Shown here one piece after another: positions 45,807 to 60,601 of a stretch of DNA of 64,000 nucleotides. Position 1 is the stretch's first letter. The number at the start of each line of letters is the position of its first letter. The position numbers and the translations under genes are program-made. Below the pieces are notes generated by a model. It did no database searches and had not been told where the DNA came from. It was given only the letters and a program-made list of their open reading frames with translations. The stretch is from Prolixibacteraceae bacterium (lineage in GTDB: Bacteria; Bacteroidota; Bacteroidia; Bacteroidales; Prolixibacteraceae). The stretch covers positions 186,001-250,000 of the forward strand of contig JAIBEZ010000028.1 in assembly GCA_019459485.1 (NCBI GenBank), written 5' to 3'.

Positions 45807-47261
45807 CTAAACTACATAAGTTCTTGAAGTAGTGTCGCCACCACGTCCTGTCCAGTTGGTGTGGAAAAATTCACCGCGAGGTTTGTCGATACGTTCGTAG
45901 GTGTGAGCACCGAAATAGTCGCGCTGAGCCTGTAACAAGTTAGCTGGCAAACGTTCGCTGCGCAATCCGTCGAAGTAGCAAAGTGCCGATGTCAATGCAG
46001 GAACCGGGATTCCGTTGGTCAGTGCAGTTGCACAAACACGACGCCATCCGGCCTGTGCTTTTTCAACGATTTCTTTAAAGTGTGGATCAAGCAACAAGTT
46101 TGACAATGCCGGGTTTTTGTCGAATGCAATTTTGATATCTCCCAGGAATCTTGAGCGAATGATGCAACCACCACGCCACATCAAAGCAATACCGCCGTAA
46201 TTCAGGTTCCAGCCGTATTCTTTTGCAGCTTCCATCATCAGGTTGTAACCTTGTGCATACGAAATAATTTTGGCTCCGAACAACGCGTCTTTCAGGTCTG
46301 AAATCATCTGAGCTTTGTCGATGGTTTTGTCAACAACCGGTCCGCTAATTACTTTCGAAGCTTCAACACGCATGTCTTTCTGAGCCGACAAGCAACGTGC
46401 AAATACCGATTCACCGATCAAAGTCAATGGAATTCCAAGGTCGAGTGCTGTAACAGCAGTCCATTTTCCGGTACCTTTTTGCCCGGCAGTGTCGAGAATT
46501 TTTTCAACCATCGGTTCGCCGTCTTCATCTTTGAACCCAAGAATGTCGCGGGTAATTTCGATCAGATACGAATCCAAATCGCCTTCGTTGTACTTTTTGA
46601 AAACATCGTGCATTTCGTCAGCGCTAAGTCCCAGCATTTCTTTCATCAATTGATAGGCTTCGCAGATAATTTGCATATCGCCATATTCAATTCCGTTGTG
46701 AACCATTTTTACGAAGTGACCTGCGCCACCTTCGCCAACCCAGTCGCAGCAAGGGGTGCCGTCTTCCACTTTGGCCGAAATAGCCTGAAAAATATCTTTC
46801 ACAGCAGGCCATGCAGCAGGTGATCCGCCGGGCATGATCGATGGCCCGAGCAATGCACCTTCTTCACCGCCCGAAACGCCGGTTCCGATGTACAATAACC
46901 CTTTGCTTTCAACATATTTGGCGCGTCGAATGGTGTCGGGAAAATGCGAGTTTCCGCCGTCGATGATGATATCTCCTTCTTCCAGATGAGGAATAATCAG
47001 TTCAATGAAATCATCTACAGGTTTTCCTGCTTTTACCAACATCATCACTTTGCGCGGTTTTGCCAAAGAAGCACACAATTCTTCAATCGAATGTGCTCCA
47101 ATGAAGTTTTTACCGGCGCCGCGACCAGCCATAAACTCGTCAACACGGGCAACAGTGCGGTTAAAAACTCCAACTGTAAAGCCTTTGCTCTCCATGTTCA
47201 ATACAAGGTTTTCGCCCATCACGGCCAAACCTATTAATCCAATGTCTGCTAATTTTTTCAT
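45807..47261 (-). CDS. gnd: 6-phosphogluconate dehydrogenase, decarboxylating
   Basis: A 484-residue enzyme of the long, Gram-negative type. The NADP-binding loop is IGLAVMGENLVLN (about 10-22), the substrate loop GVSGGEEGALLGPSIMPGG (about 128-146), and the catalytic Lys is in GAGHFVKMVHNGIEYGD (about 184-200). It turns 6-phosphogluconate into ribulose-5-phosphate plus CO2 with NADPH. No glucose-6-phosphate dehydrogenase is adjacent. Instead it is the distal gene of the minus-strand run holding the LarA-like enzyme, which could supply gluconate. Confidence 0.96.
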   Translation of the reverse strand: MKKLADIGLIGLAVMGENLVLNMESKGFTVGVFNRTVARVDEFMAGRGAGKNFIGAHSIEELCASLAKPRKVMMLVKAGKPVDDFIELIIPHLEEGDIIIDGGNSHFPDTIRRAKYVESKGLLYIGTGVSGGEEGALLGPSIMPGGSPAAWPAVKDIFQAISAKVEDGTPCCDWVGEGGAGHFVKMVHNGIEYGDMQIICEAYQLMKEMLGLSADEMHDVFKKYNEGDLDSYLIEITRDILGFKDEDGEPMVEKILDTAGQKGTGKWTAVTALDLGIPLTLIGESVFARCLSAQKDMRVEASKVISGPVVDKTIDKAQMISDLKDALFGAKIISYAQGYNLMMEAAKEYGWNLNYGGIALMWRGGCIIRSRFLGDIKIAFDKNPALSNLLLDPHFKEIVEKAQAGWRRVCATALTNGIPVPALTSALCYFDGLRSERLPANLLQAQRDYFGAHTYERIDKPRGEFFHTNWTGRGGDTTSRTYVV

Positions 47262-47296
47262 GTTCGTTATCGTTAAAAATTTATATTAAAATTTGA

Positions 47297-47367
47297 ACCA
47301 CATAGGCACATAGGGCACATAGATTTTCTTCTATTTTTTTCTATTGTGTTCTATGTGTCTATGTGGT
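47297..47367. repeat. Inverted repeat of CACATAG phrases, copy 1
   Basis: ACCACATAGGCACATAG (47297-47313) and CTATGTGTCTATGTGGT (47351-47367) match in 16 of 17 positions. The right arm overlaps the end of pdxB and supplies its stop codon. The same family is at 50967-51034. Confidence 0.7.
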
Positions 47368-48489
47368 TTGTAAATTAAATCCCAGTTTTTTCAATACATC
47401 TATAGTTTTGTGCCCGATATTTTTCGGAACAATCGTAAACGCCGGAAACTCCCTTCGGACAGGGTAATCACCACGCAACTGCTCAAATTGTGCAGGGGCT
47501 TTCCTGAAGGCCTGATCATCATTTCGAATATCGTAGGTATTCAAAATCGCTTTGGAAATGATTTCCTGTTCGCTCAATCCTGTTCCGTCAAGTTCAAAAA
47601 CCGGATTTGCCGGAAGTTCTACTCCTGAAGGTTGCCAGTTTTCCAATCCCAAATTGAAGAATTGGCTGATTGCATGAACGCTCATTTGTGATCCGGTGGC
47701 TTTTCCGTCTTTTGAATAACCTGCAATGTGTGGCGTTGCAATTTCTGTCATTGCCAGTAATTCCAGATCAATGTCTGGTTCATTTTCCCAGCAGTCGCAA
47801 ACAAATCCGGAGATTTGCCCGTTTTTCAAAGCTGTTTTTACTGAAAGTGTTTCAATCACTTCACCCCGACATGAGTTGATCAGAATTGGGTTCCGTTTTA
47901 GTTCAGCAAAGAAAGCTTCGTTTCCAAGATGGAAAGTAGTGTCTTCTCCTTTCATATTCAGCGGAACATGCAAGGTAATAATGTCGGCTTTTTCCATTAC
48001 CTGTTTCAGGCTGACAAAAGCGGCAGAACCTTCAGCACGTTCGCGTGGCGGGTCATTCAGCAAAACTTTCATGCCAAATAAATCGCAAATGCGGGTAACT
48101 TTGCTACCCACGTTTCCGACGCCAACTACCCCAATGCACAAATCTTTCAGGTTCAGATTTTTTCTTTCCGCCAAAACCATCAATGTTGAGGCGATGTATT
48201 GTTCCACCGATTTACTGTTGCAGCCGGGTGCGTTCGTCCATTTAATTCCGGAAGCAGCACAGTAATCGGTATCGATGTGGTCGTAACCAATGGTTGCTGT
48301 CGCGATGAATTTGACCGATGAACCGGCCAGCAACTTTTCATTGCAAATGGTTCGGGTGCGGGTAACGATCGCATCGGCATCTTTCGCTATTTCCGGAGTC
48401 GTTTTTGACCCGGACAGATAGACTACCTCGGCCACTCCTTCGAAAGCGCCACGGATATAGGGGATTTTATCGTCAATTATAATCTTCAT
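47359..48489 (-). CDS. pdxB: Erythronate-4-phosphate dehydrogenase
   Basis: A 376-residue D-2-hydroxyacid dehydrogenase from MKIIIDDKIPY. ATATIGYDHIDTDYC (about 67-81), APGCNSKSVEQYI (about 87-99), the NAD loop GVVGVGNVGSKV (about 116-127), catalytic Arg in NSCRGEV, Glu in WENEPDI, and His in TPHIAGYS. The C-terminal PdxB dimerisation domain (about 285-376) separates it from other hydroxyacid dehydrogenases. The family acts in DXP-dependent vitamin B6 synthesis. It is 5 bp from the Gfo/Idh/MocA gene; the stop codon lies inside a repeat. Confidence 0.88.
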   Translation of the reverse strand: MKIIIDDKIPYIRGAFEGVAEVVYLSGSKTTPEIAKDADAIVTRTRTICNEKLLAGSSVKFIATATIGYDHIDTDYCAASGIKWTNAPGCNSKSVEQYIASTLMVLAERKNLNLKDLCIGVVGVGNVGSKVTRICDLFGMKVLLNDPPRERAEGSAAFVSLKQVMEKADIITLHVPLNMKGEDTTFHLGNEAFFAELKRNPILINSCRGEVIETLSVKTALKNGQISGFVCDCWENEPDIDLELLAMTEIATPHIAGYSKDGKATGSQMSVHAISQFFNLGLENWQPSGVELPANPVFELDGTGLSEQEIISKAILNTYDIRNDDQAFRKAPAQFEQLRGDYPVRREFPAFTIVPKNIGHKTIDVLKKLGFNLQTT

Positions 48490-48494
48490 ATTTC

Positions 48495-49541
48495 TTAGAT
48501 ATTTCGGCAACTGCCTTTAACCCGTTTGCTGTTGTCGGGTTTGGTGGCATAATAATCTTTTACCATTTCTTCGAGTACGGCACTTGTTCGGGCGGCAGTC
48601 TTTCCGGTACTTACACATTGTTCTACTCCGCGCAATTCGTTCACTACCTGTTCGATCAGATAATGTTGAATGTTTTCAGGATTTTGGAAACTGAAGCTAA
48701 CCGTTCCTTCAGGAGTGGTCAGTTTTACATCGCCATGCTGAAAGCTGGAGAAAGTAAGTTTTCCCTTGGTTCCGTTGATTTCAATGATATCTTCTTCGTT
48801 TCCTTTGGCGACTACAAAACACCAGCTTCCTGTACCAATCACGCCATTTCCAAACAAGAATGTCCCTGTTACAGAATCTTCAGCAGAATAATATCCTGCC
48901 TGATTTTCAGCTATTCCATGAACCTGAATGACTGGGCCAAATACGAAATCAAGAAAATCGAGCTGGTGTGAAGCTAAATCATAGAAATAGCCAGCACCTG
49001 CAATCTCCGGTTTCACATGCCAGAATTGAGTTTCATGTTTTAGATCGCGGTCGGGTACCGACTTGTGAAGACGGATATTTACCGTTATTGGTTTTCCAAT
49101 GATCCCATTATTAATCAATTCTTTTACTTTCAGGAAGGCTGGAAGCGACCTTCGGTAATAGGCTACAAACAAAGGCATTCCGGTTTCTTCCGAAACGCGG
49201 AGCATTTCCTTGCATTCCTGATAATTGCGCGCCATTGGTTTTTCAACATAAACCGGCTTTCCGGATTTCATGGCGGCAATGGCATACGATGCATGGGTGT
49301 CGGGTGGCGTAGCAATGTAAACTGCATTTACCTCCGGATCATTGATCAACTCACTGGCTTCGGAATACCATTTCGGAACGCCATGCCGCTCTGCATAATC
49401 CTGAGCCAATGCAGCATTACGGCGCATCACTGCCACCAACCTGGAATGTTCAACTTTTTTAAAAGCCGGACCGCTCTTTAGTTCGGTCACATTTCCACAG
49501 CCAATAATTCCCCAACGTACATCCTGAATTTTATGCATCAT
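48495..49541 (-). CDS. Gfo/Idh/MocA family oxidoreductase
   Basis: A 348-residue NAD(P)-dependent sugar oxidoreductase. The Rossmann loop is WGIIGCGNVTEL (about 10-21), the strand YIATPPDTHASYAIAAM follows (about 75-91), and the catalytic Lys is in VYVEKPMARN (about 97-106). The C-terminal domain has AGYFYDLASHQLDFLDFVFG with the active-site histidine. It sits between the LarA-like enzyme and pdxB on one strand; an oxidoreduction of a sugar acid in the uronate pathway is plausible, but the substrate is not known. Confidence 0.88.
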   Translation of the reverse strand: MMHKIQDVRWGIIGCGNVTELKSGPAFKKVEHSRLVAVMRRNAALAQDYAERHGVPKWYSEASELINDPEVNAVYIATPPDTHASYAIAAMKSGKPVYVEKPMARNYQECKEMLRVSEETGMPLFVAYYRRSLPAFLKVKELINNGIIGKPITVNIRLHKSVPDRDLKHETQFWHVKPEIAGAGYFYDLASHQLDFLDFVFGPVIQVHGIAENQAGYYSAEDSVTGTFLFGNGVIGTGSWCFVVAKGNEEDIIEINGTKGKLTFSSFQHGDVKLTTPEGTVSFSFQNPENIQHYLIEQVVNELRGVEQCVSTGKTAARTSAVLEEMVKDYYATKPDNSKRVKGSCRNI

Positions 49542-49546
49542 TTTTT

Positions 49547-49651
49547 GATTAACGATTAACGATTAACGATTAACGATTTGTGATTAACGATTTCAGAAAT
49601 TTGGAGTGGTAATCAATCCGCAATCGTTAATCTTCAATCTATAATCGTTAA
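49547..49651. repeat. GATTAAC heptamer tandem with inverted copies
   Basis: GATTAAC occurs four times in direct tandem (49547-49574) and again at 49582-49588. The inverse GTTAATC lies at 49626-49632 and 49645-49651. The array fills the gap between the Gfo start and the larA-like stop codon, where it ends, and can fold back on itself. Confidence 0.75.
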
Positions 49652-50941
49652 TCAATATTTGAACCGATCTTTAAACGCCCAAAGTCCCAATGCCGGATTT
49701 GAAATGTAGAAGATTTCTTCTCCATCGGCCATTGTATTATAACCGTCGCGCAGTTTGGCAGGATCGTATTTGGCAGTTACTTCGTCAATATCTGCATATT
49801 TAAAGCCAACGCTTTCAATCTCTGCCTGTGTCAGGTTTTCCGATCCTTTTCCGGGGCAATAGGTAATATTGAAACGTCCTTCGGAAGAGCCGTGAATGAG
49901 GTGGGCTGCGGCGCTCAGGTTATTACGCAGTTCTTCGTTTTCGTCGCAAAATTTCAAAGTTGCCGGAGTCCCGAAGTAGCCGTATTTGCGGATCAGGCGA
50001 TCGATTTCCTTGTCTTCGCCGAACTCCTTCAGGGCAGGAGCCAAAACGATTAGTTCGCCGTCATCGTCAATTGCCATGCGGGTTCGGTAAATTGATTTGT
50101 TGCCCAGCCATGTACTTTTGAATTCGGTTGGATCAAGGTAAACCACCACTTTTTTCAGCGGTTTTTCAAGCATTTCGAAGTTTACCAGCAAAGCCAGTTT
50201 GGCCGCTTTGTCGAACACTTCAAAATCGTCGCCGATGTACAATCCACGTGTTTTAATTTTGCCGTCGGTTTTGTCCAGTCCAACTACCGTTTGCACATAT
50301 ACAATTGGCATGTGTTGGGTGAAATTATCCGAAGCATAATTGAAAATGCGGCGAACCGGAGTGTCGGCATGGCCCATCATTTTTTCCATTCCATAAGCTG
50401 CGCCTACAAAATGGCTTTTGTTGATGCCTTCCACACCTCCGGTTCCGACGAAAATGTTTTTGTTGTAATTGGCCATTCCCACTACTTCGTGCGGAACAAC
50501 CTGCCCGATCGACAAAATCAGGTCGAAATTGCCTTCAATCAGCAATTTGTTGACTTGCGCAGGCCATGGAAACTCAACGGCACCACCCGAAACTTCTTTG
50601 ACGAATTCGGCAGGAACAGTTCCAACTGTCACCACATCGTTGCGCCAGTCGTGCTCGCGAATCAGCGATGCAGGCATGGCACCAAACATGTGTGAAATCT
50701 GATGATCAGTCATTGGAGTGTGAGTTCCCAATGCTGGCAAAACGTCTGTTAACGCGTCGCCATAAAAATTCCAGGTCATTTCTGTTAATTCACCGGCCCG
50801 ACTTGGCAAACGGGTATAATCCGGCGGAATCGCCAGTACTTTTTTTCGTGGCCCCATTTTCGAAAACGCCTGATAAAGACCAATCCGAAGATGTTCGGCG
50901 GTCAATTCGTCGTTTACTGAGCCTATTTCGTAATAAAGCAT
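49652..50941 (-). CDS. LarA-superfamily nickel-pincer hydroxyacid racemase/epimerase
   Basis: A 429-residue LarA (DUF2088) enzyme. His151 (VPHEVVG), Lys161 (ANYNKNIF) and His177 (INKSHFVG) have the same spacings, 10 and 16 residues, as His174, Lys184 and His200 of lactate racemase, which hold and bind the nickel pincer nucleotide. PDYTR (Asp41, Arg44) and GTHTPMT (His74) match the substrate and catalytic sites. It is thus probably active. The context (fructuronate reductase, sugar kinases, gnd) fits a sugar-acid epimerase, such as the D-gluconate 2-epimerase known in this superfamily, better than lactate racemase. Cofactor genes larB, larC and larE are not in the window. Confidence 0.87.
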   Translation of the reverse strand: MLYYEIGSVNDELTAEHLRIGLYQAFSKMGPRKKVLAIPPDYTRLPSRAGELTEMTWNFYGDALTDVLPALGTHTPMTDHQISHMFGAMPASLIREHDWRNDVVTVGTVPAEFVKEVSGGAVEFPWPAQVNKLLIEGNFDLILSIGQVVPHEVVGMANYNKNIFVGTGGVEGINKSHFVGAAYGMEKMMGHADTPVRRIFNYASDNFTQHMPIVYVQTVVGLDKTDGKIKTRGLYIGDDFEVFDKAAKLALLVNFEMLEKPLKKVVVYLDPTEFKSTWLGNKSIYRTRMAIDDDGELIVLAPALKEFGEDKEIDRLIRKYGYFGTPATLKFCDENEELRNNLSAAAHLIHGSSEGRFNITYCPGKGSENLTQAEIESVGFKYADIDEVTAKYDPAKLRDGYNTMADGEEIFYISNPALGLWAFKDRFKY

Positions 50942-50966
50942 ATCTTCTGTTTTTAATGTTAATATA

Positions 50967-51034
50967 CTATTGTGTCCTATGTGTCTATGTGTTTATATTT
51001 TATTTTGAACCACATAGGCGCATAGGACACATAG
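50967..51034. repeat. Inverted repeat of CACATAG phrases, copy 2
   Basis: CTATTGTGTCCTATGTGTC and on (50967-50994) pairs imperfectly with AACCACATAGGCGCATAGGA and on (51008-51034). It is the same family as 47297-47367, and fills the gap between the PfkB kinase and the larA-like gene. Confidence 0.7.
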
Positions 51035-51042
51035 AAAAATCA

Positions 51043-52122
51043 CTATCGCTTAACGCGTGCATTTCCGCCCCAGATGCTCCAAACCATGTCTTCGTCGGCA
51101 GGTTGTGCATAGTCGGTGAGGAAAGTGGTTGCCAGAGCGCCGGTTGCCCAGCCAAATTGCGGCCATTTTTCAGGTTCCCAACCTTTCAGGATACCATAAA
51201 GCAAACCGCCCACAAAACCGTCGCCACCACCAATGCGGTCGAGTACTGTGATTTTGCGCGGTTCAATTACCTGCCATTCGTTGCCTTCGAGCATGATTGC
51301 ACCCCAAAGGTGTTCGTTGGCGCTGATTACCTGACGCAAAGTAGTTGCAAATACCGATGCATTTGGAAAAGCTTCTTTTACGCGGTTAATCATTCCTTTG
51401 AATCCATCAATTTCGGCTTCAATTCCTTTTCCACCGGCTTCAGGGCCCTGAATACCCAAACAAAGCTGGAAATCTTCTTCGTTACCAATCAGGATATCGG
51501 CTACCGAAGCAATTTCAGTAAAGCTTTCGCGCAATTCCTTGTCGCGTCCTTTCCAGAAGGAAGCACGGTAATTCAGGTCGAATGCAATACGAGTTCCGTA
51601 TTTCTTGGCAGCACGTGCAATTTCAAGACAAAAAGTAGTTGTTTCTGGAGATAAAGCTCCAATCAATCCTGAAAGGTGAACAATCTGTACGCCTTCTTTT
51701 CCGAAAATGCGTTCTAGATCGAAATCTTTCACATTCAATGTCCGGCCAACTTCGCCGGCACGGTCGTTTTGTACGCGAGGGCCGCGGGTTCCGAAACCGC
51801 TGTCGGCAATGTTGAACTGGTGGCGGTATCCCCATGGATCACCCTGAGCCACTTCAGGTCCTTCATAATCCATATTCCGGCTGCGGAGGCTGCTTTTTAT
51901 AAATAACGCAATCGGACTGTCTTTCACGAAAGTGGTCAGTACTTTTACCGGAAGACCAAGTGAAGAAGAGATATTTGCAACATTTGTTTCAGCACTGGTA
52001 GCCTGCATTTCGAACAGGTTGCTGCTGTGAACCGGCTGTCCGTTTACCGGCGTGATGCGAACACCCATGCTGGTTGGAACCAGCATGGAATATTTACAGT
52101 CTTTTTTTAATTCGAAACTCAT
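51043..52122 (-). CDS. PfkB-family sugar kinase
   Basis: A 359-residue ribokinase-like enzyme. The N-terminal substrate segment AETNVANISSSLG (about 45-57), FDLNYRASFWKG (about 182-193), NEEDFQLCLGI (about 218-228) and the catalytic GGGDGFVGGLLYG near 291-303 are seen; the anion-hole Asp is the D of GGGD. It resembles 2-dehydro-3-deoxygluconate kinases and is a distant paralogue of kdgK at 57385. Its N-terminal domain differs enough that the substrate may be another sugar acid such as gluconate. It is upstream of the larA-like gene. Confidence 0.86.
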   Translation of the reverse strand: MSFELKKDCKYSMLVPTSMGVRITPVNGQPVHSSNLFEMQATSAETNVANISSSLGLPVKVLTTFVKDSPIALFIKSSLRSRNMDYEGPEVAQGDPWGYRHQFNIADSGFGTRGPRVQNDRAGEVGRTLNVKDFDLERIFGKEGVQIVHLSGLIGALSPETTTFCLEIARAAKKYGTRIAFDLNYRASFWKGRDKELRESFTEIASVADILIGNEEDFQLCLGIQGPEAGGKGIEAEIDGFKGMINRVKEAFPNASVFATTLRQVISANEHLWGAIMLEGNEWQVIEPRKITVLDRIGGGDGFVGGLLYGILKGWEPEKWPQFGWATGALATTFLTDYAQPADEDMVWSIWGGNARVKR

Positions 52123-52284
52123 ATTTTAGATTTTAAGATTTAAGACAATGTATTTTCTTGCAAATAAGGTAATAAGGTTGTTTTTAGGTTTATTTACTTT
52201 CTACTAAGGTTAAGATATTAGAAATAAGGTTTTTAATATCCAATGCTCAATACTCAAAACCCAATCTCCAAGGTATCGCTCCAA

Positions 52285-52313
52285 CCTGAAACTTTGAACC
52301 TGAAACTTTGAAC
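52285..52313. repeat. Tandem CCTGAAACTTTGAA
   Basis: The 14-mer CCTGAAACTTTGAA is perfectly repeated at 52285-52298 and 52299-52312, 6 bp from the stop of the SDR gene. The piece 52287-52307 is inverted at 21191-21211. A CCAATGCTCAATACTCAAAA phrase precedes it. Confidence 0.7.
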
Positions 52314-52318
52314 TTCTT

Positions 52319-53170
52319 TTATACTCCTCCAAACGCGCTGTATCCGCCGTCAACCGGGATTACGATGCCGGTTACGAACGATGAAACATCAGAAAGAAGG
52401 AATAGGGTAGCGCCCTGCAAATCTTCGGGTTCGCCGAATTTGCCCATTGGCGTGTTGTTCACGATTTTTTGTCCACGGGCAGAGAAATTTCCGGTTGCCT
52501 GATCCAATACCAAAAAACGATTTTGGTCGGTGATGAAGAATCCCGGAGCAACAGCATTTACGCGAATTCCGACTTTGGCCAGATGTACAGCAAACCATTC
52601 TGTGAAATTATTCACGGATGCTTTTGCTGCCGAATAGGCTGGAATTTTGGTGAGCGGTTTGTAAGAATTCATAGATGAAACATTCAGGACCACTCCTTTT
52701 TTGTTTTTCAGCATATCGGTGGTAAAAACCATTGAAGGTAGCAAAGTACCTTTGAAGTTTAGAGCAAAAACCTTGTCAAAACCGTCCATTTCCAGTCCGT
52801 AGAAAGTGTCTTCGAGATGATCGAGGCTGTCTTCATTCATCTGTTCAACTTTTGTTGTCGCGGTTGGGTGGTTTCCACCTGCACCGTTAATCAACAGGTC
52901 GATGTCCCCTAATTTCTCATTAATCTCTTGCTTGGCTTTGATCAATGATTCTTTGTCGAGCACATTGGCTTCAACACCAATTACTTCAGCTTTAAATTCT
53001 TTGGAAATTTCTGCAGCTACTTTGTCGGCCACTGCTTTATTAATATCGGCAATTGCAATTTTCACCCCAACCGAGGCCATTGCTTTTACCATTGCTGAAC
53101 CAATAACACCGGCGCCACCGGTTATCACACATACTTTACCTTTAAGGTCGCTAAAACTGATTGGATTCAT
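52319..53170 (-). CDS. SDR-type D-mannonate oxidoreductase (fructuronate reductase)
   Basis: A 283-residue classical SDR. The cofactor loop is ITGGAGVIGSAMV (about 15-27), NGAGGNHPT follows at about 93-101, and the catalytic Ser and YxxxK pair are in NVSSMNSYKPLTKIPAYSAAK (seen in two pieces, about 159-179). In hexuronate clusters of Bacteroidota and Firmicutes this SDR replaces the long-chain UxuB, reducing fructuronate to D-mannonate. The neighbouring LacI-type gene and the divergent uxaE-uxaC genes support that role. Confidence 0.87.
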   Translation of the reverse strand: MNPISFSDLKGKVCVITGGAGVIGSAMVKAMASVGVKIAIADINKAVADKVAAEISKEFKAEVIGVEANVLDKESLIKAKQEINEKLGDIDLLINGAGGNHPTATTKVEQMNEDSLDHLEDTFYGLEMDGFDKVFALNFKGTLLPSMVFTTDMLKNKKGVVLNVSSMNSYKPLTKIPAYSAAKASVNNFTEWFAVHLAKVGIRVNAVAPGFFITDQNRFLVLDQATGNFSARGQKIVNNTPMGKFGEPEDLQGATLFLLSDVSSFVTGIVIPVDGGYSAFGGV

Positions 53171-53185
53171 CTTCTTATAATTTAG

Positions 53186-54262
53186 TTATTTATAGTAATC
53201 AAGGTTTTCTTTTGTAATAATATCAATTGATGTATAGTTTTCATTGTTTACCTCTTTTTTAAGCACAAGGTTTTCAAAAAGTGTGATAATTGAACGATAT
53301 CCTTGTTCTTCAGGGCGTTGACAGATGAGAAAGTCAATAATCCCTTTTTTTAGGAAATGGATGTTTTCATTGATTAAGTCATGACCGATTACCCGTATTC
53401 CTGACAAATTGGCTTCCTCGATTAACCGGGCCAGTAAATAAACCTGCGAATTGGTTACAAAAATGCCCTTGATGCCGGCATTTGATTTTAACAGATCTGT
53501 TATTTTAGTCTGACAGGTTATATCGGTCGGGTCAGTAATTTCAAGCGTGATTAATTCCTTTTTTGCTGAAGATGAATTGAAATATTCGTAGAACCCTTTC
53601 TCTCTTTGCACCAGATGGTTCATGTTGTCTTTTTCTTTGGCAAATTGGAGAACAAGGATGGTCGCATTTTCAGGAATTGAATAATCAAGCAACTTTGCCG
53701 CAAGTGTTCCCGATTGAAATGAATCCTGTCCGATGTAACTTAATTTGTCGCTGTCTTTAATGTTTGAATCAATGAATACATAAGGAATGTCGCGTTTTTT
53801 CAGTTCCGCAATAAATTCCTTCGATTCTCTGGAAAAAAAAGGTGCAAGTACTACTCCCTCCGGATTGTTATTAAGGATTAGTTCAGCTTCTCTTTTAAAT
53901 GTTTTTGTGTCGGTTTGCTTGAAAAGATGAATGTTAATGTTGACCCCGTATTGCTGAATTTCCTGAAATGCTTTTCTAACGCCAATCATTGGCTTATTCC
54001 AGTATGATTCAGACGAAATCGGTTCAGGAAAAAGCAAAGCAAACGAAAAGGTTTTTTTCGACGCCAGCGTGCTTGCCAATATATTGGGCTGGTATTCCAT
54101 TTCATTAATAATTGCAAGGATTTTATCACGCGTGGCCTCGGAGACTTCTCCACGTTTGTGAATTACACGGTCAACTGTTCCGATTGAAACGTTTGCCTTC
54201 AGTGCAATATCCTTAATTCTGGTGCGGTTAATTGCTTTGATAAATCTCAATTTTAATGTCAA
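53186..54262 (-). CDS. LacI-family transcriptional regulator
   Basis: A regulator of about 354-358 residues. The N-terminal HTH is RTRIKDIALKANVSIGTVDR with the hinge helix in YQPNILASTLASKK, and a periplasmic-binding-protein-like effector domain follows (about 60-350; NIHLFKQTD, VVLAPFFSRES, YIGQDSFQSG, RVIGHDLINEN). No ATG precedes the HTH; TTG at 54260-54262 or 54248-54250 is likely. The divergent gap carries two palindromes, one over the -33 region of this gene, so autoregulation is expected. The ligand is probably a hexuronate intermediate, inferred from context. Confidence 0.88.
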   Translation of the reverse strand: MTLKLRFIKAINRTRIKDIALKANVSIGTVDRVIHKRGEVSEATRDKILAIINEMEYQPNILASTLASKKTFSFALLFPEPISSESYWNKPMIGVRKAFQEIQQYGVNINIHLFKQTDTKTFKREAELILNNNPEGVVLAPFFSRESKEFIAELKKRDIPYVFIDSNIKDSDKLSYIGQDSFQSGTLAAKLLDYSIPENATILVLQFAKEKDNMNHLVQREKGFYEYFNSSSAKKELITLEITDPTDITCQTKITDLLKSNAGIKGIFVTNSQVYLLARLIEEANLSGIRVIGHDLINENIHFLKKGIIDFLICQRPEEQGYRSIITLFENLVLKKEVNNENYTSIDIITKENLDYYK

Positions 54263-54278
54263 AAATATTTGGCAGCAA

Positions 54279-54286
54279 CAAAACTA
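54279..54286 (-). promoter_or_regulatory. Putative -7 box (TAGTTTTG) of the LacI-family gene
   Basis: Minus-strand TAGTTTTG matches TAnnTTTG. Nineteen bp upstream is operator-like site 1 (54306-54319), which would cover the -33 element. Confidence 0.45.
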
Positions 54287-54305
54287 AATAATTTTCTCTT
54301 AGTGT

Positions 54306-54319
54306 CGTGTACGAACACG
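54306..54319. promoter_or_regulatory. Operator-like palindrome 1 (CGTGTACGAACACG)
   Basis: Matches CGTGTnCGnACACG, an even-spaced palindrome with a central CG typical of LacI-family operators. It lies 44 bp before the regulator start, over its expected -33 region. Confidence 0.7.
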
Positions 54320-54394
54320 GAAAAAGTATTGTATAACATTTTTAGACGATTTTGGTTTTTTATGGTTGCAGGATTAATATTTAGTATCTATTTT

Positions 54395-54408
54395 CGTGTC
54401 CGTACACG
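54395..54408. promoter_or_regulatory. Operator-like palindrome 2 (CGTGTCCGTACACG)
   Basis: Second copy of CGTGTnCGnACACG, 89 bp from copy 1, 44 bp before the uxaE start. A weak -7 (TAGTTTTA, 54418-54425) places the uxaE -33 element within this site. Confidence 0.7.
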
Positions 54409-54451
54409 GAATGTTTTTAGTTTTATTTATGTATCAGTAAATTAATACAAT

Positions 54452-55699
54452 ATGCAATTAGGAAAATTTAGTTTGGGAATTGGTGACCGGTTTTCGCACC
54501 AGGGCGTTGCACAATTGCGGGCAATTGTAAAAGCCAATCAAACCGGATTGGACATTAGTCCTGTTTGGAACAAGTCGAACCGCGAACATATTTACGTTCA
54601 TTCGCATCCGGCTGATGTTCGTAAAGAGGCCGATGCTGCTGTTGCCGCACTGGGTTTCTCCGGAAAGTATTTTGTTGATGCCGACCATATTAATTTGGGA
54701 ACAGTAGCTCCGTTTGTTGAAACCGCTGATTTTTTCACTCTTGATGTTGCTTCGTTTATCGGAAAAGAAAGTCCGGAAGCGGAAGTGAAAGATTTTGTGG
54801 CTTCGTGCAGTAAATACATGGGGAAACTTTCTATCCCCGGAATTGATCATCCGATTGAAGTGACCGAAGAATTGCTGGTTGTAATTGCAGGTAAATTTCT
54901 GGCTGCAACCAAACAGGCTTCCGAAATTTATAGTTTCCTGAAAGAAAAAAAAGGCGAAGGCAATTTTATTACCGAAGTTTCAATGGACGAAGTCGAAACT
55001 CCTCAAACTCCTGTCGATCTGTTTTTTATACTGAAGATGTTGGCCGATAAAGGCGTTCCGGCGCAAACAATTGCTCCGAAATTTACCGGTCGCTTTAATA
55101 AAGGTGTCGATTACACCGGAAATGTTGATCAGTTTGCAAGAGAATTTGAAGAAGATGTTTTGGTGATCGACTATGCTATAAAGGAATTCGGACTCCCTGC
55201 TGAACTGAAATTGAGCGTTCACTCCGGAAGCGATAAATTCACGATTTATCCGATTATGGCCGGAATCATCAGGAAATACGACAAAGGTCTGCACGTAAAA
55301 ACCGCCGGAACAACCTGGCTCGAAGAAGTGATCGGACTGGCTTTGGCAGGCGGCGAAGCTTTGGAAATAGCAAAGTCGATTTATACCATTGCATTGGGTC
55401 GAAAAGACGAACTTTGCGCTCCGTACGCCGATGTAATTGACATTGACGATTCGAAACTTCCATCAGCAGAAGAAGTAGCCGGATGGAGCAGCGAAAAATT
55501 TGCCAATACGCTACGCCACATTCCCGGACATCCTGATTACAATCCAAATTTACGTCAGTTGATTCATGTGGGATACAAAGTTGCATCTGAAATGGGCACA
55601 GCTTATACCGACCTTCTGAAAAAACACGCCGATGTGATTGGTAGCTGTGTAGAAGAAAATATTTACGAACGCCACCTGAAACGGTTGTTTAACCTGTAG
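54452..55699 (+). CDS. uxaE: Tagaturonate epimerase
   Basis: A 415-residue member of the UxaE family, which interconverts tagaturonate and fructuronate so that galacturonate joins the glucuronate route. LGKFSLGIGDRFSHQGVAQL (about 3-22), HIYVHSHPADVR and KYFVDADHINLGTVAPF carry the conserved His and Asp residues likely to bind metal; LSVHSGSDKFTIYP and RHIPGHPDYN follow. First gene of the right arm, under the divergent operator region. Confidence 0.9.
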   Translation: MQLGKFSLGIGDRFSHQGVAQLRAIVKANQTGLDISPVWNKSNREHIYVHSHPADVRKEADAAVAALGFSGKYFVDADHINLGTVAPFVETADFFTLDVASFIGKESPEAEVKDFVASCSKYMGKLSIPGIDHPIEVTEELLVVIAGKFLAATKQASEIYSFLKEKKGEGNFITEVSMDEVETPQTPVDLFFILKMLADKGVPAQTIAPKFTGRFNKGVDYTGNVDQFAREFEEDVLVIDYAIKEFGLPAELKLSVHSGSDKFTIYPIMAGIIRKYDKGLHVKTAGTTWLEEVIGLALAGGEALEIAKSIYTIALGRKDELCAPYADVIDIDDSKLPSAEEVAGWSSEKFANTLRHIPGHPDYNPNLRQLIHVGYKVASEMGTAYTDLLKKHADVIGSCVEENIYERHLKRLFNL

Positions 55700-55780
55700 A
55701 AGTTCGGAGTGCCTAAAATTCGGAGTGCCTGGAGTTTTAAAACTTCGAACTTTAGGCACTCTAGTTCACTTTAGGCACTT
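55698..55780. repeat. Phrase-like inverted repeat after uxaE
   Basis: AGAAGTTCGGAGTGCCTAAA begins at the uxaE stop. AGTGCCTAAA (55708-55717) is inverted as TTTAGGCACT at 55751-55760 and 55770-55779, and GAAGTTCG pairs with CGAAC/ACTTCGAAC. It could act as a terminator-like hairpin or stall between uxaE and uxaC. Confidence 0.7.
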
Positions 55781-55812
55781 GTAAAAAAAAGTAAAATCTA
55801 AATCTAAACGAT

Positions 55813-57213
55813 ATGAAAAAATTTATGGACGAAAATTTTCTGCTACAAACCCAAACTGCGCAGAAATTGTATCACGAACATGCGGCCAAAATGCCGATTT
55901 TTGATTACCACTGTCACATCAATCCAAAAGATATTGCCGACGACCGGAAATTCAATACGATTACCGAAATCTGGCTGGCCGGCGATCATTACAAATGGCG
56001 CGGAATGCGTACCAACGGGGTAGCCGAAAAATATTGCACCGGCGATGCCAGCGATTGGGAAAAGTTCGAAAAGTGGGCTGAAACTGTTCCTCATACTTTG
56101 CGGAATCCGTTGTATCACTGGACTCACCTCGAACTGAAAAAGTTTTTCGGAATCAATGAAGTTTTAAGTCCGAAAAATGCACGTACAATTTACGATGCCT
56201 GCAATGCAAAACTGCAAACTCCGGAATATAGTTGCAGAAACATTATTCGTATGGCCAACGTGCATACCATTTGTACCACCGACGATCCGGTTGATTCGCT
56301 CGAATATCACCAGAAAATTAAAGCCGACGGATTTGAGGTATCTGTACTGCCTGCATGGCGTCCAGATAAAGCCATGATGGTTGAACACCCAATTTCATAC
56401 AACGAGTATATCAACCAACTGGCAAAAGTTTCAGGAATGGAAATTAAATCATTTCCTGAATTGATGGCCGCTTTGGACAAACGTCACCAGTATTTTCACG
56501 ATAATGGTTGCCGTTTATCCGATCATGGATTGGATACCGCTTTTGCCGACGATTATACTACCGATGAAATTGATGCTCTTTTTATTAAGGTAAGGATTGG
56601 CTACCGGCTTACTTCAAGAGAAATAATGAAGTTTAAATCGTGCATGCTGTATGAATTTGGAAAGATGGATCACTCCCGCGGATGGATCCAGCAATTTCAT
56701 ATCGGTGCATTAAGAAATAACAATACCCGCTTGTTCAATCAGTTAGGACCTGATGTCGGATTCGATTCTATTGGCGACAAACCGATTGCAGAACCATTGT
56801 CGAAATTGCTGAACCGTTTGGACATGGAAGATAGACTGTGCAAAACGGTTTTGTACAACCTGAATCCGAGAGACAATGAATTGTATGCCACCATGATCGG
56901 CAATTTTCAGGATGGAAGTGTCGCCGGTAAAATGCAATGGGGCTCCGGATGGTGGTTTCTGGATCAGAAAGACGGCATGGAAAAACAGATTAATGCCTTA
57001 TCGAACCTAGGTTTACTAAGCCGGTTCGTAGGAATGTTAACCGATTCAAGAAGTTTTCTTTCATACACACGTCACGAATATTTCCGTCGTACACTATGTA
57101 ATATTTTAGGAAACGATGTCGAAAACGGCGAAATCCCGAACGACATGGAATTGCTGGGTCAAATGGTTGAGAACATCAGCTTTAACAACGCAAAAAACTA
57201 TTTTAATTTTTAA
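55813..57213 (+). CDS. uxaC: Glucuronate isomerase
   Basis: A 466-residue amidohydrolase-fold uronate isomerase turning D-glucuronate into fructuronate and D-galacturonate into tagaturonate. Metal-binding His pair in FDYHCHINPKD (about 30-40), ICTTDDPVDS (about 153-162), and C-terminal LTDSRSFLSYTRHEYFRR. Length matches the family. Second gene of the right arm, 113 bp after uxaE across a repeat. Confidence 0.96.
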   Translation: MKKFMDENFLLQTQTAQKLYHEHAAKMPIFDYHCHINPKDIADDRKFNTITEIWLAGDHYKWRGMRTNGVAEKYCTGDASDWEKFEKWAETVPHTLRNPLYHWTHLELKKFFGINEVLSPKNARTIYDACNAKLQTPEYSCRNIIRMANVHTICTTDDPVDSLEYHQKIKADGFEVSVLPAWRPDKAMMVEHPISYNEYINQLAKVSGMEIKSFPELMAALDKRHQYFHDNGCRLSDHGLDTAFADDYTTDEIDALFIKVRIGYRLTSREIMKFKSCMLYEFGKMDHSRGWIQQFHIGALRNNNTRLFNQLGPDVGFDSIGDKPIAEPLSKLLNRLDMEDRLCKTVLYNLNPRDNELYATMIGNFQDGSVAGKMQWGSGWWFLDQKDGMEKQINALSNLGLLSRFVGMLTDSRSFLSYTRHEYFRRTLCNILGNDVENGEIPNDMELLGQMVENISFNNAKNYFNF

Positions 57214-57253
57214 GAAAAAAGTTACTTTTCCCGCCTTTTTGGTACGTACAGAA

Positions 57254-57284
57254 TTTGTTGAATTTGATAAAAATAGTAGATTTG
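57254..57284 (+). promoter_or_regulatory. Promoter before kdgK (TTTG-N19-TAGATTTG)
   Basis: A -33 TTTG (57254-57257), an exact 19-bp spacer and a -7 TAGATTTG (57277-57284) make the best Bacteroidota promoter in the window. It would drive kdgK, eda and the transporter separately from uxaE-uxaC. Confidence 0.7.
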
Positions 57285-57296
57285 CAATCGATTGCA
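57283..57296. promoter_or_regulatory. Operator-like palindrome (TGCAATCGATTGCA)
   Basis: A perfect 14-bp palindrome with a central CG starts on the last bases of the -7 box and covers the expected transcription start. It has LacI-type operator form but differs from CGTGTnCGnACACG, so a different regulator is likely. Confidence 0.65.
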
Positions 57297-57384
57297 TAAA
57301 TTAATGGAATCGGGAGAAAGGAGACCGGAAACCGGAAAACTTCAAGTAGTAAATTGTAAATCATTAAATAGTAAATGTTAAGAG

Positions 57385-58416
57385 ATGAAAGTAGTTACAT
57401 TCGGAGAAATCATGTTGCGTCTGGCAACTCCTGGTTATTTGCGTTTCAGCCAAAGTAATAATTTAACAGCCACATTTGGCGGTGGCGAGGCCAATGTGGC
57501 CGTTTCGCTAGCCAACTTTGGTATTCCCGTAGATTTTGTTACCCGCCTGCCCAAAAATGACATTGCACAATCATGTGTGATGGATTTGCGTAAATATGGG
57601 GTAGGAGTGGATCAGATTGTTTATGGTGGCGAACGTCTTGGAATTTATTTTCTTGAAACCGGCGCTGTAAGCCGCGGTAGCAAGGTGGTTTACGACCGTG
57701 CACATTCAGCTATTTCTGAAATTAAATCAGGAATGATCGATTGGGACAAGGTTTTTGAAGGTGTTAACTGGTTTCACTGGACCGGAATTACTCCGGCTAT
57801 TTCGCAGGGAGCTGCCGATGTTTGTCTGGAAGCCATTCTGAAAGCAAACGAAAAAGGAATCACCGTTTCATGCGATTTGAACTACCGTAAAAATCTATGG
57901 AACTACGGCAAAAAAGCTGGCGAAGTGATGCCTGAACTGGTTGCCGGAACCGATGTGATTTTGGGTAATGAGGAAGATGCCGAAAAAGTACTCGGAATTA
58001 AACCCGAAGGTGTTGATGTTACCGGCGGTCATGTGGAGGCAGCAGCTTACGAATCTGTTTCAAAACAGATTATGGTAAAATATCCACGGTGTAAAAAAGT
58101 AATTACTACTTTGCGCGGGTCGATCAATGCCAACCACAACAGCTGGTCGGGCGTACTTTGGGATGGTAAAACTTTGTTTGAAGCGCCAACTTACCAGATT
58201 ACTGATATTGTTGACCGTGTTGGTGGCGGTGATTCGTTCATGGGCGGACTTGTTTATGGATTGCTTACTTATACCGAAGATGACCAGAAAGCACTGAACT
58301 TTGCTGTTGCTGCATCTTGCCTGAAACATACCATTTACGGCGATTACAATCAGGTAACCGTTGATGAAGTTGAAAAACTGATGGGTGGCGATGCTTCCGG
58401 CAGAGTTGCAAGGTAG
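57385..58416 (+). CDS. kdgK: 2-dehydro-3-deoxygluconate kinase
   Basis: A 343-residue PfkB-family kinase. MKVVTFGEIMLRLATPGYLRF opens it as in KdgK; FGGGEANVAVSLANFG (about 31-46) binds sugar; CDLNYRKNLW, NEEDAEKVLGI and the catalytic VDRVGGGDSFMGGLVYG (about 274-290) follow. It makes KDPG for the aldolase encoded next. It has its own promoter and operator. Confidence 0.94.
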   Translation: MKVVTFGEIMLRLATPGYLRFSQSNNLTATFGGGEANVAVSLANFGIPVDFVTRLPKNDIAQSCVMDLRKYGVGVDQIVYGGERLGIYFLETGAVSRGSKVVYDRAHSAISEIKSGMIDWDKVFEGVNWFHWTGITPAISQGAADVCLEAILKANEKGITVSCDLNYRKNLWNYGKKAGEVMPELVAGTDVILGNEEDAEKVLGIKPEGVDVTGGHVEAAAYESVSKQIMVKYPRCKKVITTLRGSINANHNSWSGVLWDGKTLFEAPTYQITDIVDRVGGGDSFMGGLVYGLLTYTEDDQKALNFAVAASCLKHTIYGDYNQVTVDEVEKLMGGDASGRVAR

Positions 58417-58429
58417 TTTTCAACTTTAA

Positions 58430-58557
58430 TATTGGTTATTGAGAGTTGGTTATTGGGACTTGAAATTCAAAATATCAAATATCCAATAACGAATATTCAA
58501 TATCCAATTTCCATGACTGAGGCAAAACTTGAAACCTGGAACTTGAAACTTTAAACT
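58430..58557. repeat. Phrase-like repeats between kdgK and eda
   Basis: AATATTGGTTATTGAGAGTT and GGTTATTGGG (58430-58458) are inverted as ATATCCAATAACGAATATTC and AATATCCAATTT (58480-58511). AACTTGAAACCTGGAACTTG with AAACTTTAAACTG (58527-58557) belongs to the 52285 family. No gene is seen in the gap. Confidence 0.6.
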
Positions 58558-58563
58558 GATTTT

Positions 58564-59235
58564 ATGGCACGTTTTACAAGAATAGAAGTAGCATTAAAAA
58601 TGAAAGAAACCGGCATGGTTCCGGTTTTTTATAACAAGGACGCTGAAGTTTGCAAGCAGGTTGTAAAAGCCTGCTACGACGGCGGTGTGCGGGTTTTTGA
58701 ATTCACGAACAGGGGCGATTTTGCCCACGAAGTATTTGCTGAAATCTCGAAATGGGCGGCCAAAGAAGCTCCGGAAATGATTTTGGGAGTAGGTTCGGTA
58801 ATCGACAGTGCAACGGCTGCACTTTACATTCAGCTTGGTTCCAATTTTATCGTTTCGCCTTTGATTGATGAAGACACAGCCCGCTTCTGCAACCGTCGAA
58901 AAATTGCCTGGAGTCCGGGTTGCGGTTCTGTTACTGAAATCAACCGTGCTCACGAATTAGGTGCCGAAGTGGTAAAAGTTTTTCCCGGATCATCGGTGGG
59001 CGGCCCTGATTTTATTTCAGGAGTAAAAGGCCCGATGCCTTGGGCCAGCATTATGCCAACAGGAGGCGTTTCACCTGATGAAGCCAATCTGAAAGGCTGG
59101 TTTAAGGCAGGTGTACATTGCGTGGGTATGGGGTCGCAATTGTTCCCGAAAGAGGTAATTGAATCAGGAAATTACCAGGCTATCACAGAAAAATGCAAAG
59201 AAGCTTTGGCAATCATCAAAAAGCTTAAAATATAA
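58564..59235 (+). CDS. eda: KDPG/4-hydroxy-2-oxoglutarate aldolase
   Basis: A 223-residue class I aldolase splitting KDPG into pyruvate and glyceraldehyde-3-phosphate. The Schiff-base Lys is in EVVKVFPGSSVGG (about 138-150), with VFEFTNRGDFA (about 45-55), ILGVGSVIDSATA (about 75-87) and MPTGGVSPDEANLKGW as further signatures. Last enzymatic step of the uronate route encoded here; the transporter gene follows 31 bp later. Confidence 0.95.
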   Translation: MARFTRIEVALKMKETGMVPVFYNKDAEVCKQVVKACYDGGVRVFEFTNRGDFAHEVFAEISKWAAKEAPEMILGVGSVIDSATAALYIQLGSNFIVSPLIDEDTARFCNRRKIAWSPGCGSVTEINRAHELGAEVVKVFPGSSVGGPDFISGVKGPMPWASIMPTGGVSPDEANLKGWFKAGVHCVGMGSQLFPKEVIESGNYQAITEKCKEALAIIKKLKI

Positions 59236-59266
59236 TCTAACAAGTATAAACCTAAAAAAGCAGCGG

Positions 59267-60601
59267 ATGAAACAACTCGAAAAAATCGGAAATTACCGGT
59301 GGACAATCTGTGCACTTGTATTCTTCGCAACAACAATCAACTATTTAGATCGACAGGTTATCAGTTTATTAAAGCCTTATCTGGAAGCAGATGGCGTATT
59401 TGGAACTGATCCAGCTCATTATGAATCAATTTATGCAAATCTCGTAATTGCTTTCCAGGTGGCGTATGCCGCAGGTATGCTTTTGATGGGCGGAATTATT
59501 GATCGCTTCGGCACAAAAATAGGCTATGCATTGTCCTTATTTGGCTGGAGTTTAGCCGCTATTGGCCATGCGTTTGCAAAAACCCCGTTTGGATTTGGTG
59601 TTGCCCGTGCTGCATTAGGTGTTCCTGAAGCAGGTAACTTTCCGGCGGCAATTAAGACCACAGCCGAATGGTTTCCGAAGAAGGAGAGAGCCCTTGCAAC
59701 AGGTATTTTTAATTCAGGAACAAATGTCGGAGCCATTATTGCACCAATGGTTGTTCCGTTAATTGCCATAACCCTTGGCTGGCAAATGGCTTTTATTATT
59801 ACAGGTGCGATTGGGTTGATATGGTTGTTTTTCTGGCAGATCATGTATGATACTCCTGAAAAAAAGTTGGCAAAAGGTCAGCTTAAACAGAGCGAATACG
59901 ATCATATTATGAGTGATAAAGAAGAAACCGTTGCTGCTGATGGTTCCGAATTTAAAAAGGTTAGTTGGTTGAAATTACTGAAATACAAACAAACATGGGC
60001 GTTCTTCCTCGGTAAATTACTTACCGATCCGGTTTGGTGGTTCTTCCTTTTCTGGTTGCCAGCCTTCCTGAAAGAACAATATGGCCTGACTGGTACGCAA
60101 GTTAGTTTTCCTATCGCACTTGTTTATACGATGACGACTTTCGGCAGTATTCTTGGCGGATGGTTGCCAAAATATTTCATCGAACACGGAATGGATGCCA
60201 ACAGGGCCCGGAAAAAATCGATGTTTATTTATGCATTATTCCCATTGTTGGTGCTTTCTGCCCAATATCTCGGAAGTTTCAATATGTGGTATGCAGTGAT
60301 CATTATTGGTATTGCAGCTTCAGCTCATCAGGCATGGTCAGCAAATATTTTCACTACCGTTTCTGATATGTTTCCAAAACGTGCCATTGCTTCGGTAACT
60401 GGTATTGGCGGTATGGCTGGCGCAGTTGGTGGTATCATGATTGCAAAAGCTGCCGGTATGTTATTCGACCATTACAAAGCAATGGGCGATATCAGAATTG
60501 GTTACGGAATCATGTTTATGATTTGCGCCACGGCTTATATTATTGCTTGGGTGGTAATGCACTTACTGGTTCCTAAATTCAAAAAAATTGAATTGGATTA
60601 A
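59267..60601 (+). CDS. MFS hexuronate transporter (ExuT-like)
   Basis: A 444-residue major facilitator of the anion:cation symporter family. Twelve helices can be placed. TTINYLDRQVISLLKPYL (about 18-35) is the family N-terminal signature with conserved Asp-Arg, and GVPEAGNFPAAIKTTAEWFPK (in two pieces, about 114-134) is the ExuT/GudP-like motif. It should import glucuronate or galacturonate. The start is the Met of MKQLEKIGNYRW, 31 bp after eda; an in-frame start inside eda does not fit. Confidence 0.92.
   Translation: MKQLEKIGNYRWTICALVFFATTINYLDRQVISLLKPYLEADGVFGTDPAHYESIYANLVIAFQVAYAAGMLLMGGIIDRFGTKIGYALSLFGWSLAAIGHAFAKTPFGFGVARAALGVPEAGNFPAAIKTTAEWFPKKERALATGIFNSGTNVGAIIAPMVVPLIAITLGWQMAFIITGAIGLIWLFFWQIMYDTPEKKLAKGQLKQSEYDHIMSDKEETVAADGSEFKKVSWLKLLKYKQTWAFFLGKLLTDPVWWFFLFWLPAFLKEQYGLTGTQVSFPIALVYTMTTFGSILGGWLPKYFIEHGMDANRARKKSMFIYALFPLLVLSAQYLGSFNMWYAVIIIGIAASAHQAWSANIFTTVSDMFPKRAIASVTGIGGMAGAVGGIMIAKAAGMLFDHYKAMGDIRIGYGIMFMICATAYIIAWVVMHLLVPKFKKIELD

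Follow-up and report, generated by a model that had tools for sequence, protein, structure and literature searches.

The locus described here lies in a stretch of 64,000 nucleotides from a Prolixibacteraceae genome (the window; G000:C17:186001–250000, with G, C and L marking our handles for genomes, contigs and loci), whose assembly GCA_019459485.1 comprises 5.53 Mb and is 99.88% complete. It contains two divergent gene arms, whose products most likely allow the bacterium to convert sugar acids of the pectin and glucuronate type to pentose phosphates, and which are separated by an intergenic region at 54263–54451. The forward-strand arm is composed, from this region outward, of uxaE (tagaturonate epimerase, 54452–55699; PF16257, 183 bits, cut-off 27), uxaC (glucuronate/galacturonate isomerase, 55813–57213; PF02614, 704 bits; NF002794, 667 bits, over the NCBIfam cut-off), kdgK (2-keto-3-deoxygluconate (KDG) kinase, 57385–58416; E-value 4.4e-100 to 2AFB, a solved KDG kinase), eda (KDPG/KHG aldolase, 58564–59235; NF005499, 372 bits, cut-off 275) and the gene of an MFS transporter of the hexuronate/galactonate type (59159–60601; PF07690; galactonate transporter model TIGR00893, 225.6 bits, below its cut-off of 395). 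The first start codon of the transporter overlaps eda, and its real start is probably later. The reverse-strand arm begins with a LacI-family regulator (53186–54262; PF00356, PF13407), followed by a short-chain dehydrogenase/reductase (SDR) matching fructuronate reductase (D-mannonate oxidoreductase; 52319–53170; NF006132, 370.8 bits, cut-off 281), a PfkB-family kinase (51043–52122; PF00294, family-level assignment), here called the slot kinase and proposed as a gluconate (or mannonate) 6-kinase, and a larA-like gene for a nickel-dependent putative hexonate epimerase of group 18 (49652–50941). It ends with a Gfo/Idh/MocA oxidoreductase (48495–49541; PF01408, PF22725, PF02894; assigned at family level only), pdxB (4-phosphoerythronate dehydrogenase, 47359–48510; NF001309, 448.5 bits, cut-off 434), which adjoins gnd in relatives as well, and gnd (NADP-dependent decarboxylating 6-phosphogluconate dehydrogenase, 45807–47261; TIGR00873, 756 bits, cut-off 427), the only full-length copy in the genome. 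These profile matches bear out the gene list and coordinates of the original prediction, an earlier reading of the same DNA, for UxaC, UxaE, the SDR, KdgK, Eda, the transporter, the LarA-like protein, PfkB and Gnd.

The 189 bp between lacI and uxaE contain CCGTGTnCGnnCACGA twice, within two operator-like palindromes that read on the reverse strand as CCGTGTTCGTACACGA (54305–54320) and CCGTGTACGGACACGA (54394–54409), 89 bp from each other. With up to two mismatches, the window holds four operator matches (the two palindromes on both strands) against 0.49 expected, and none of 100 shuffles reached four. With two copies of one operator in the stretch that they share, the divergent arms look like a single regulon, and we propose that the LacI protein binds the palindromes and represses both. 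The shared operator thereby ties the gnd arm to hexuronates. The same element was followed in 80 named loci, the best 80 of at least 583 relatives confirmed among titled genome records. All 31 exact operator core sites in these loci lie upstream of lacI, uxaE or uxaC, at a distance of no more than 250 bp, and an operator is present at 22 of the 27 lacI genes that precede the SDR (the exceptions being L131, L136, L166, L182 and L197). One locus (L130) has, in addition, a direct repeat of about 39 bp in the divergent promoter, beside two operators and between uxaE (ending at 6163) and lacI (starting at 6417).

The LarA-like protein is a group-18 member by score (NF052594, "putative hexonate epimerase"; 655 bits, cut-off 500). 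Group 18 is predicted to act on a hexonate, as a hypothesis only, in PMC7583248. Seven residues (D41, R44, H74, H151, K161, H177, and K282) are invariant in 22 of 22 group-18 proteins and correspond to D72, R75, H108, H174, K184, H200, and K298 of LarA, whose catalytic and nickel-pincer nucleotide-binding roles are taken from the same source. The specificity-loop residue E152 is likewise invariant in all 22, as in GntE2. An AlphaFold2 model (mean pLDDT 87.6) finds its best match in 4NAR, the Thermotoga GntE2 structure (E-value 1.3e-28), followed by lactate racemase (2.4e-16). Moreover, larB, larC, and larE are all present in the genome, side by side on contig C10 (L217). The protein is 28% identical to GntE2 and 24–27% identical to the GntE-type proteins of six relatives, and by sequence it falls into group 18 and not into the GntE groups 19 and 20, whose members epimerise mannonate to gluconate (PMC7583248). 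Two further mannonate-active LarAs, LarAH15 and LarAH10, were added by a later study, PMC11770544, the available text of which contains neither "group 18" nor "LarAH18" nor "hexonate". Around the catalytic lysine, group 18 has N281, R286, and R288 in place of the G, K, and E/Q of GntE-type LarAs; the basic residues specific to group 18 could perhaps bind a phosphate.

Of 395 genomes sampled from the phylum, 22 have an NF052594 match above the cut-off. Beside the window, 21 neighbourhoods of group-18 larA were compared; gnd is found in 20 of them (about 8 kb off in L058, none in L053), a mannonate-type SDR in 19 (not in L056 and L059), and uxuA in none. Proximity was counted in the 46 named loci in which larA is flanked by 4 kb or more on either side, where gnd and the SDR each lie within 4 kb in 40, the slot kinase in 36, and a Gfo/Idh/MocA gene in 15. 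The frequencies of gnd and the SDR in both sets place the arrangement beyond chance. The reductase–PfkB kinase–larA–gnd block is found again, complete or incomplete, in Bacteroidota, Ignavibacteria, Verrucomicrobiota, and Planctomycetota. The titles of the best 80 relatives come from Bacteroidota, Ignavibacteria, Verrucomicrobia, Lentisphaerae, Kiritimatiellae, and Planctomycetota, and among the matches listed the closest titled ones (LarA up to 92% identical) are metagenome-assembled genomes of Bacteroidota, for example Paludibacter and Prolixibacteraceae. In groups other than Bacteroidota and Ignavibacteria, parts of the block are often missing. Four Verrucomicrobia loci have the kinase and larA without gnd, and Phycisphaerae loci have a HAD-family gene and larA with or without gnd, while L202 (Sedimentisphaerales) contains the SDR, larA, the kinase, and gnd together. 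The six of the 46 loci without gnd within 4 kb are L172, L173, L188, L189, L198, and L199.

Exactly one gnd over the cut-off, full-length, is found in each of the 22 genomes with group-18 larA (hereafter carriers), and in 21 of them this sole copy lies in the larA neighbourhood (about 9 kb off in G014; the exception is G176). Transketolase follows gnd in three of the 21 neighbourhoods (L039, L040, and L043). The zwf gene is absent from seven of the 22 carriers (G333, G263, G124, G361, G031, G093, and G014), a count made in carriers only. Six of the seven (all but G333) also lack uxuA, and no other feed for gnd was found in these six among the genes tested, which did not include an FGGY gluconokinase. 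In G039 (C25:67034–69368) and G377 (C8:20504–22835), zwf stands beside a short 6-phosphogluconate dehydrogenase-like gene (a frame of 306–307 aa, below the gnd cut-off); the full-length gnd is a different gene, located in the larA cluster.

The association of gnd with pdxB is close, the gap being at most 300 bp in 21 of the 26 named loci with both genes and at most 1.5 kb in the other five; four further pdxB matches lie in named loci without gnd in the available stretch. This position suggests that PdxB may protect Gnd from 4-phosphoerythronate, although a role in making vitamin B6 is just as conceivable. Gnd is inhibited by 4-phosphoerythronate, which renders gluconate toxic to Bacillus subtilis cpgA mutants (PMC6449344). 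Expression of Escherichia coli PdxB is reported to help such a mutant (PMC12445079), although that paper calls PdxB an erythrose-4-phosphate dehydrogenase and GAPDH paralogue, unlike the NCBIfam name. A HAD-family protein was also considered as a substitute for PdxB; the counts in the 46 loci (PdxB only in 20, HAD only in 3, both in 1, neither in 22) are too few to tell.

The locus contains no uxuA, in line with the original prediction, which had found none in the window. The genome as a whole does carry one intact copy, on another contig (G000:C106:28591–29772; PF03786, E-value 1.4e-120; TIGR00695, 498 bits, cut-off 199.6), which rules out a genome without uxuA. Its neighbours encode a Glu/Gln-tRNA synthetase, pirin, a GH16 protein, and a PALP-family (threonine-dehydratase-like) protein, and no hexuronate enzyme is found among the ten neighbouring proteins scanned. 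Operator matches in the 32 kb around it are not above chance, the best having two mismatches and lying inside the tRNA-synthetase gene, so within this distance the uxuA stands outside the regulon. Of the counter-evidence named in the original prediction, a uxuA elsewhere in the genome under the same regulator, the gene was thus found, but not the operator in the 32 kb around it.

Fifteen of the 22 carriers lack uxuA; uxaC is absent from one carrier (G124). As a control, we used 80 of 118 uxaC-positive genomes without group-18 larA (all 48 from other classes and 32 of the 70 from the same class or order). Among these, uxuA is present in 62 of 80 overall, in 59 of the 66 without a LarA match of at least 140 bits, and in 3 of the 14 with another LarA. 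Carriers thus differ from uxaC genomes without such a LarA match (7/22 vs 59/66; Fisher p 4.6e-7), also when counted by genus (5/16 vs 41/46; p 2.3e-5) or outside the window's class only (6/21 vs 27/34; p 2.6e-4), although these p-values overstate the difference, the genomes being related. ManD was considered as a replacement dehydratase in genomes without uxuA. Twenty-nine of 48 over-cut-off enolase-superfamily matches were scanned (30 loci were fetched, of which L073 gave no frame), and at 1e-60 no hit to a mannonate dehydratase model was obtained, the presence of such a model in the library being unchecked.

A tree was built from 101 PfkB proteins of these loci. It places 72 slot kinases, which form two subtypes, apart from 29 KdgK proteins with support 1.0, the separation being read at the midpoint split, and the window's slot kinase lies on the other side of this split from the KdgK orthologues. 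The GxGD motif is kept in all 101 proteins. Nineteen of the 22 carriers (not G062, G224, and G263) have a slot kinase no more than about 14 kb from larA on the same contig; those of G039, G014, and G243 are outside the tree and were assigned from their identity and position. In 17 of the 22, a KdgK-type protein is found as well. The hydroxyl at C6 and the configuration at C4 and C5 are the same in KDG, gluconate, and mannonate; action of a KDG-kinase relative on gluconate or mannonate would therefore be a small step. A gluconate kinase of the GntK type, sought throughout the genome as the original prediction had proposed, was not found (TIGR01313, best 27 bits, cut-off 113.75), and the kinase position is instead occupied by this PfkB protein distinct from KdgK.

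Two further protein families occur near larA. A HAD-family protein of about 296 aa is found in L047 (10638–11528), L049, L051, L055, L167, L177, L188, L194, L197, and L201; it directly precedes larA in L047, L049, L051, and L055, which represent four of the five carriers (of 22) without a separate KdgK. A PFK-superfamily protein (PRK14072, "PPi-PFK" subfamily) is found in L047 (11616–12896), L049, L167, L171, and L201, and replaces the PfkB kinase in L047 and L049. Sedoheptulose-7-phosphate is one possible substrate of this protein.

Taken together, we consider it probable that the locus forms a hexuronate regulon under LacI control, in which a branch from mannonate runs through group-18 LarA, the PfkB slot kinase, and Gnd. 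UxaC would isomerise galacturonate and glucuronate, UxaE would epimerise tagaturonate to fructuronate, and the SDR would reduce fructuronate to D-mannonate. Group-18 LarA, using the nickel-pincer nucleotide supplied by LarB, LarC, and LarE, would then invert C2 to give D-gluconate, the kinase encoded beside larA would phosphorylate C6, and Gnd would convert 6-phosphogluconate to ribulose-5-phosphate by oxidative decarboxylation. Since the NAD(P)H used by the reductase would be regained at Gnd, the conversion of hexuronate to pentose phosphate would cost one ATP and be redox-neutral overall. We infer all catalytic steps, the substrate of the kinase, the order of kinase and epimerase, and the repression by LacI from sequence. 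The mannonate-to-gluconate branch fits the operator, the gene order, the absence of uxuA from 15 and of zwf from seven of the 22 carriers, and the larA-linked sole gnd. In this genome KdgK, Eda, and the unlinked UxuA would also permit the KDG route, so of the two possibilities originally offered, a branch beside the KDG route stands here and one instead of it does not. For many relatives, no exit from mannonate other than the shunt was found. It is possible, albeit doubtful, that in carriers without uxuA and zwf the route forms the main or only source of 6-phosphogluconate and that PdxB acts as a built-in proofreading enzyme removing the Gnd inhibitor 4-phosphoerythronate.

Several points weigh against this reading. 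The literature search, which most subscription papers lay outside, gave no activity for a group-18 LarA, and several loci (e.g. L179, L183, and L190) have no recognisable kinase near larA. This genome itself has uxuA and zwf, and in eight of the 80 named loci uxuA is part of the cluster. Moreover, Lactobacillus suebicus extracts provide a biochemical precedent for the same shunt with the kinase acting first (PMC6978723). In that order, the slot kinase would make 6-phosphomannonate, and group-18 LarA would be a 6-phosphomannonate 2-epimerase. This agrees with N281, R286, and R288 near the catalytic lysine, and with the kinase–larA pair being kept without gnd within 4 kb in L172, L173, L189, and L198 (titled Verrucomicrobia) and in L199 (an untitled bacterium). 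On the other hand, the tested members of groups 19 and 20 act on unphosphorylated mannonate (PMC7583248), and the second slot-kinase subtype (76–78% identical to the kinase of L040) is also found in L203 and L207, together with gnd and a GntE-type LarA, although the GntE-type locus L216 has a KdgK-type kinase only and no second slot subtype. Gene order does not decide the matter. It varies among loci (for example SDR–kinase–gnd–larA in L156 and L159–L161), and colinearity was therefore rejected as proof of a kinase-first order. As free acids are the substrates of those LarA relatives that have been tested, and as GntE-type clusters have the slot kinase too, we favour the epimerase acting first and regard the kinase-first order as unlikely.

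The slot kinase might instead be a second KDG kinase, with gluconate phosphorylated by a kinase encoded elsewhere. Its nearest relative among named KDG kinases is 2AFB (7e-29), and five carriers have no other KdgK: G361, G302, and G124 possess a slot kinase without a KdgK-like protein, and G224 and G263 have neither. In genomes without a KdgK-like protein the slot kinase may serve KDG. The separate, fully supported clade of 72 kinases and the presence of a KdgK-type protein in 17 carriers argue against this as a general role, as does GntK, which is over its cut-off in none of the 22, a search that did not extend genome-wide to the FGGY-type gluconokinase (TIGR01314). We hold this explanation to be quite improbable.

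The least probable explanation, for which we see little room, is that the classical KDG (Ashwell) route carries the hexuronate through the unlinked uxuA and that the larA–gnd arm serves another hexonate or an aldarate, gnd being a housekeeping gene; in its favour are the uxuA and zwf of this genome, KdgK and Eda in the locus, and the tartronate-semialdehyde reductase-like gene adjoining another LarA type in L209, and against it are the operator joining both arms, the mannonate oxidoreductase near larA, the 15 carriers without uxuA, and the lack of hexuronate neighbours and of above-chance operator matches around the uxuA of this genome. It is also favoured by uxuA being inside the cluster in eight of the 80 named loci, always between the SDR and the kinase or larA. 

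In four of the loci with uxuA inside the cluster (L125, L129, L137, and L181) the operator lies upstream of the lacI of that cluster, so uxuA can belong to this regulon in some relatives, and mannonate can there go either way under one regulator, which marks it as the branch point. The absence of uxuA alone is, finally, no proof of the proposed shunt, as the f39 genomes illustrate: these uxuA-less genomes, 7 of the 14 with another LarA type, have no full-length gnd in the loci examined.

Another LarA type is found in L205, L208, L209, L211, L213, L214, and L215, all seven of whose genomes lack uxuA. Six of the loci have, close to larA, a gene of some 300 aa that distantly resembles gnd; the only one scored, that of L209, is tartronate-semialdehyde-reductase-like and precedes a 6-phosphogluconolactonase-like gene. 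These uxuA-less genomes may thus have another route for sugar acids that is linked to LarA. The other-LarA class was rejected as a clean second replacement of uxuA because it is mixed, 3 of its 14 genomes having uxuA and the seven f39 genomes having no full-length gnd in the loci examined.

Beyond the transporter, the window encodes on the reverse strand a 3-dehydro-L-gulonate 2-dehydrogenase (61968–62990; NF009750, 409.6 bits, cut-off 316) and the glycerol kinase GlpK (63052–64000; TIGR01311, 742 bits, cut-off 590), which extends beyond the window end. GlpK is the FGGY kinase beside the locus, and it was rejected as a gluconokinase (TIGR01314, 160 bits, cut-off 648.6). An SMP-30/gluconolactonase-like protein follows GlpK (L003, 2556–3455).

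The route as such is already in print, and the original prediction was mistaken in taking it as new; the new part is the enzyme set, the regulon, and the distribution. In Thermotoga maritima, the GntE route was proposed to run epimerase first from mannonate to gluconate and on through gluconokinase and 6-phosphogluconate dehydrogenase (Rodionova 2012, as cited in PMC6978723 and PMC7583248). Both systems share UxaE, a fructuronate reductase, a LarA-family hexonate epimerase, a kinase, Gnd, and the link to pentose phosphates. Unlike Thermotoga, which has a group-20 LarA and a gluconokinase gene, the present locus combines a group-18 LarA with a PfkB kinase, a LacI operator, and PdxB, and uxuA is missing in 15 of 22 carriers. 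In extracts of L. suebicus, mannonate is phosphorylated and 6-phosphomannonate is then epimerised, the genes not being identified there (Valk 2020, PMC6978723). That route leads from galacturonate to ribulose-5-phosphate in a redox-neutral manner, and UxuA, KdgK, and KdgA were not detected in the proteome (PMC6978723). The redox-neutral conversion of hexuronate to ribulose-5-phosphate is common to both systems, whereas the L. suebicus route differs in its kinase-first order and in feeding phosphoketolase. With the Ashwell isomerase pathway (uxaC–uxuB–uxuA–kdgK–eda) the locus shares the upper steps, KdgK, and Eda, and differs from it in having uxuA outside and an additional larA–kinase–gnd block. 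In the literature within reach of our search, which excluded most subscription papers, no account of this cluster or of a mannonate kinase gene was found.

Our analysis provides candidate genes for the redox-neutral conversion of hexuronates to pentose phosphates, which is of interest for pectin-based fermentation (Valk 2020, PMC6978723), and assigns a likely pathway to an uncharacterised group of nickel enzymes. It would also correct annotations of the slot kinase as a KDG kinase and of gnd as a plain housekeeping gene. Moreover, it highlights that uxuA and zwf can both be missing in bacteria that keep gnd inside a hexuronate cluster.

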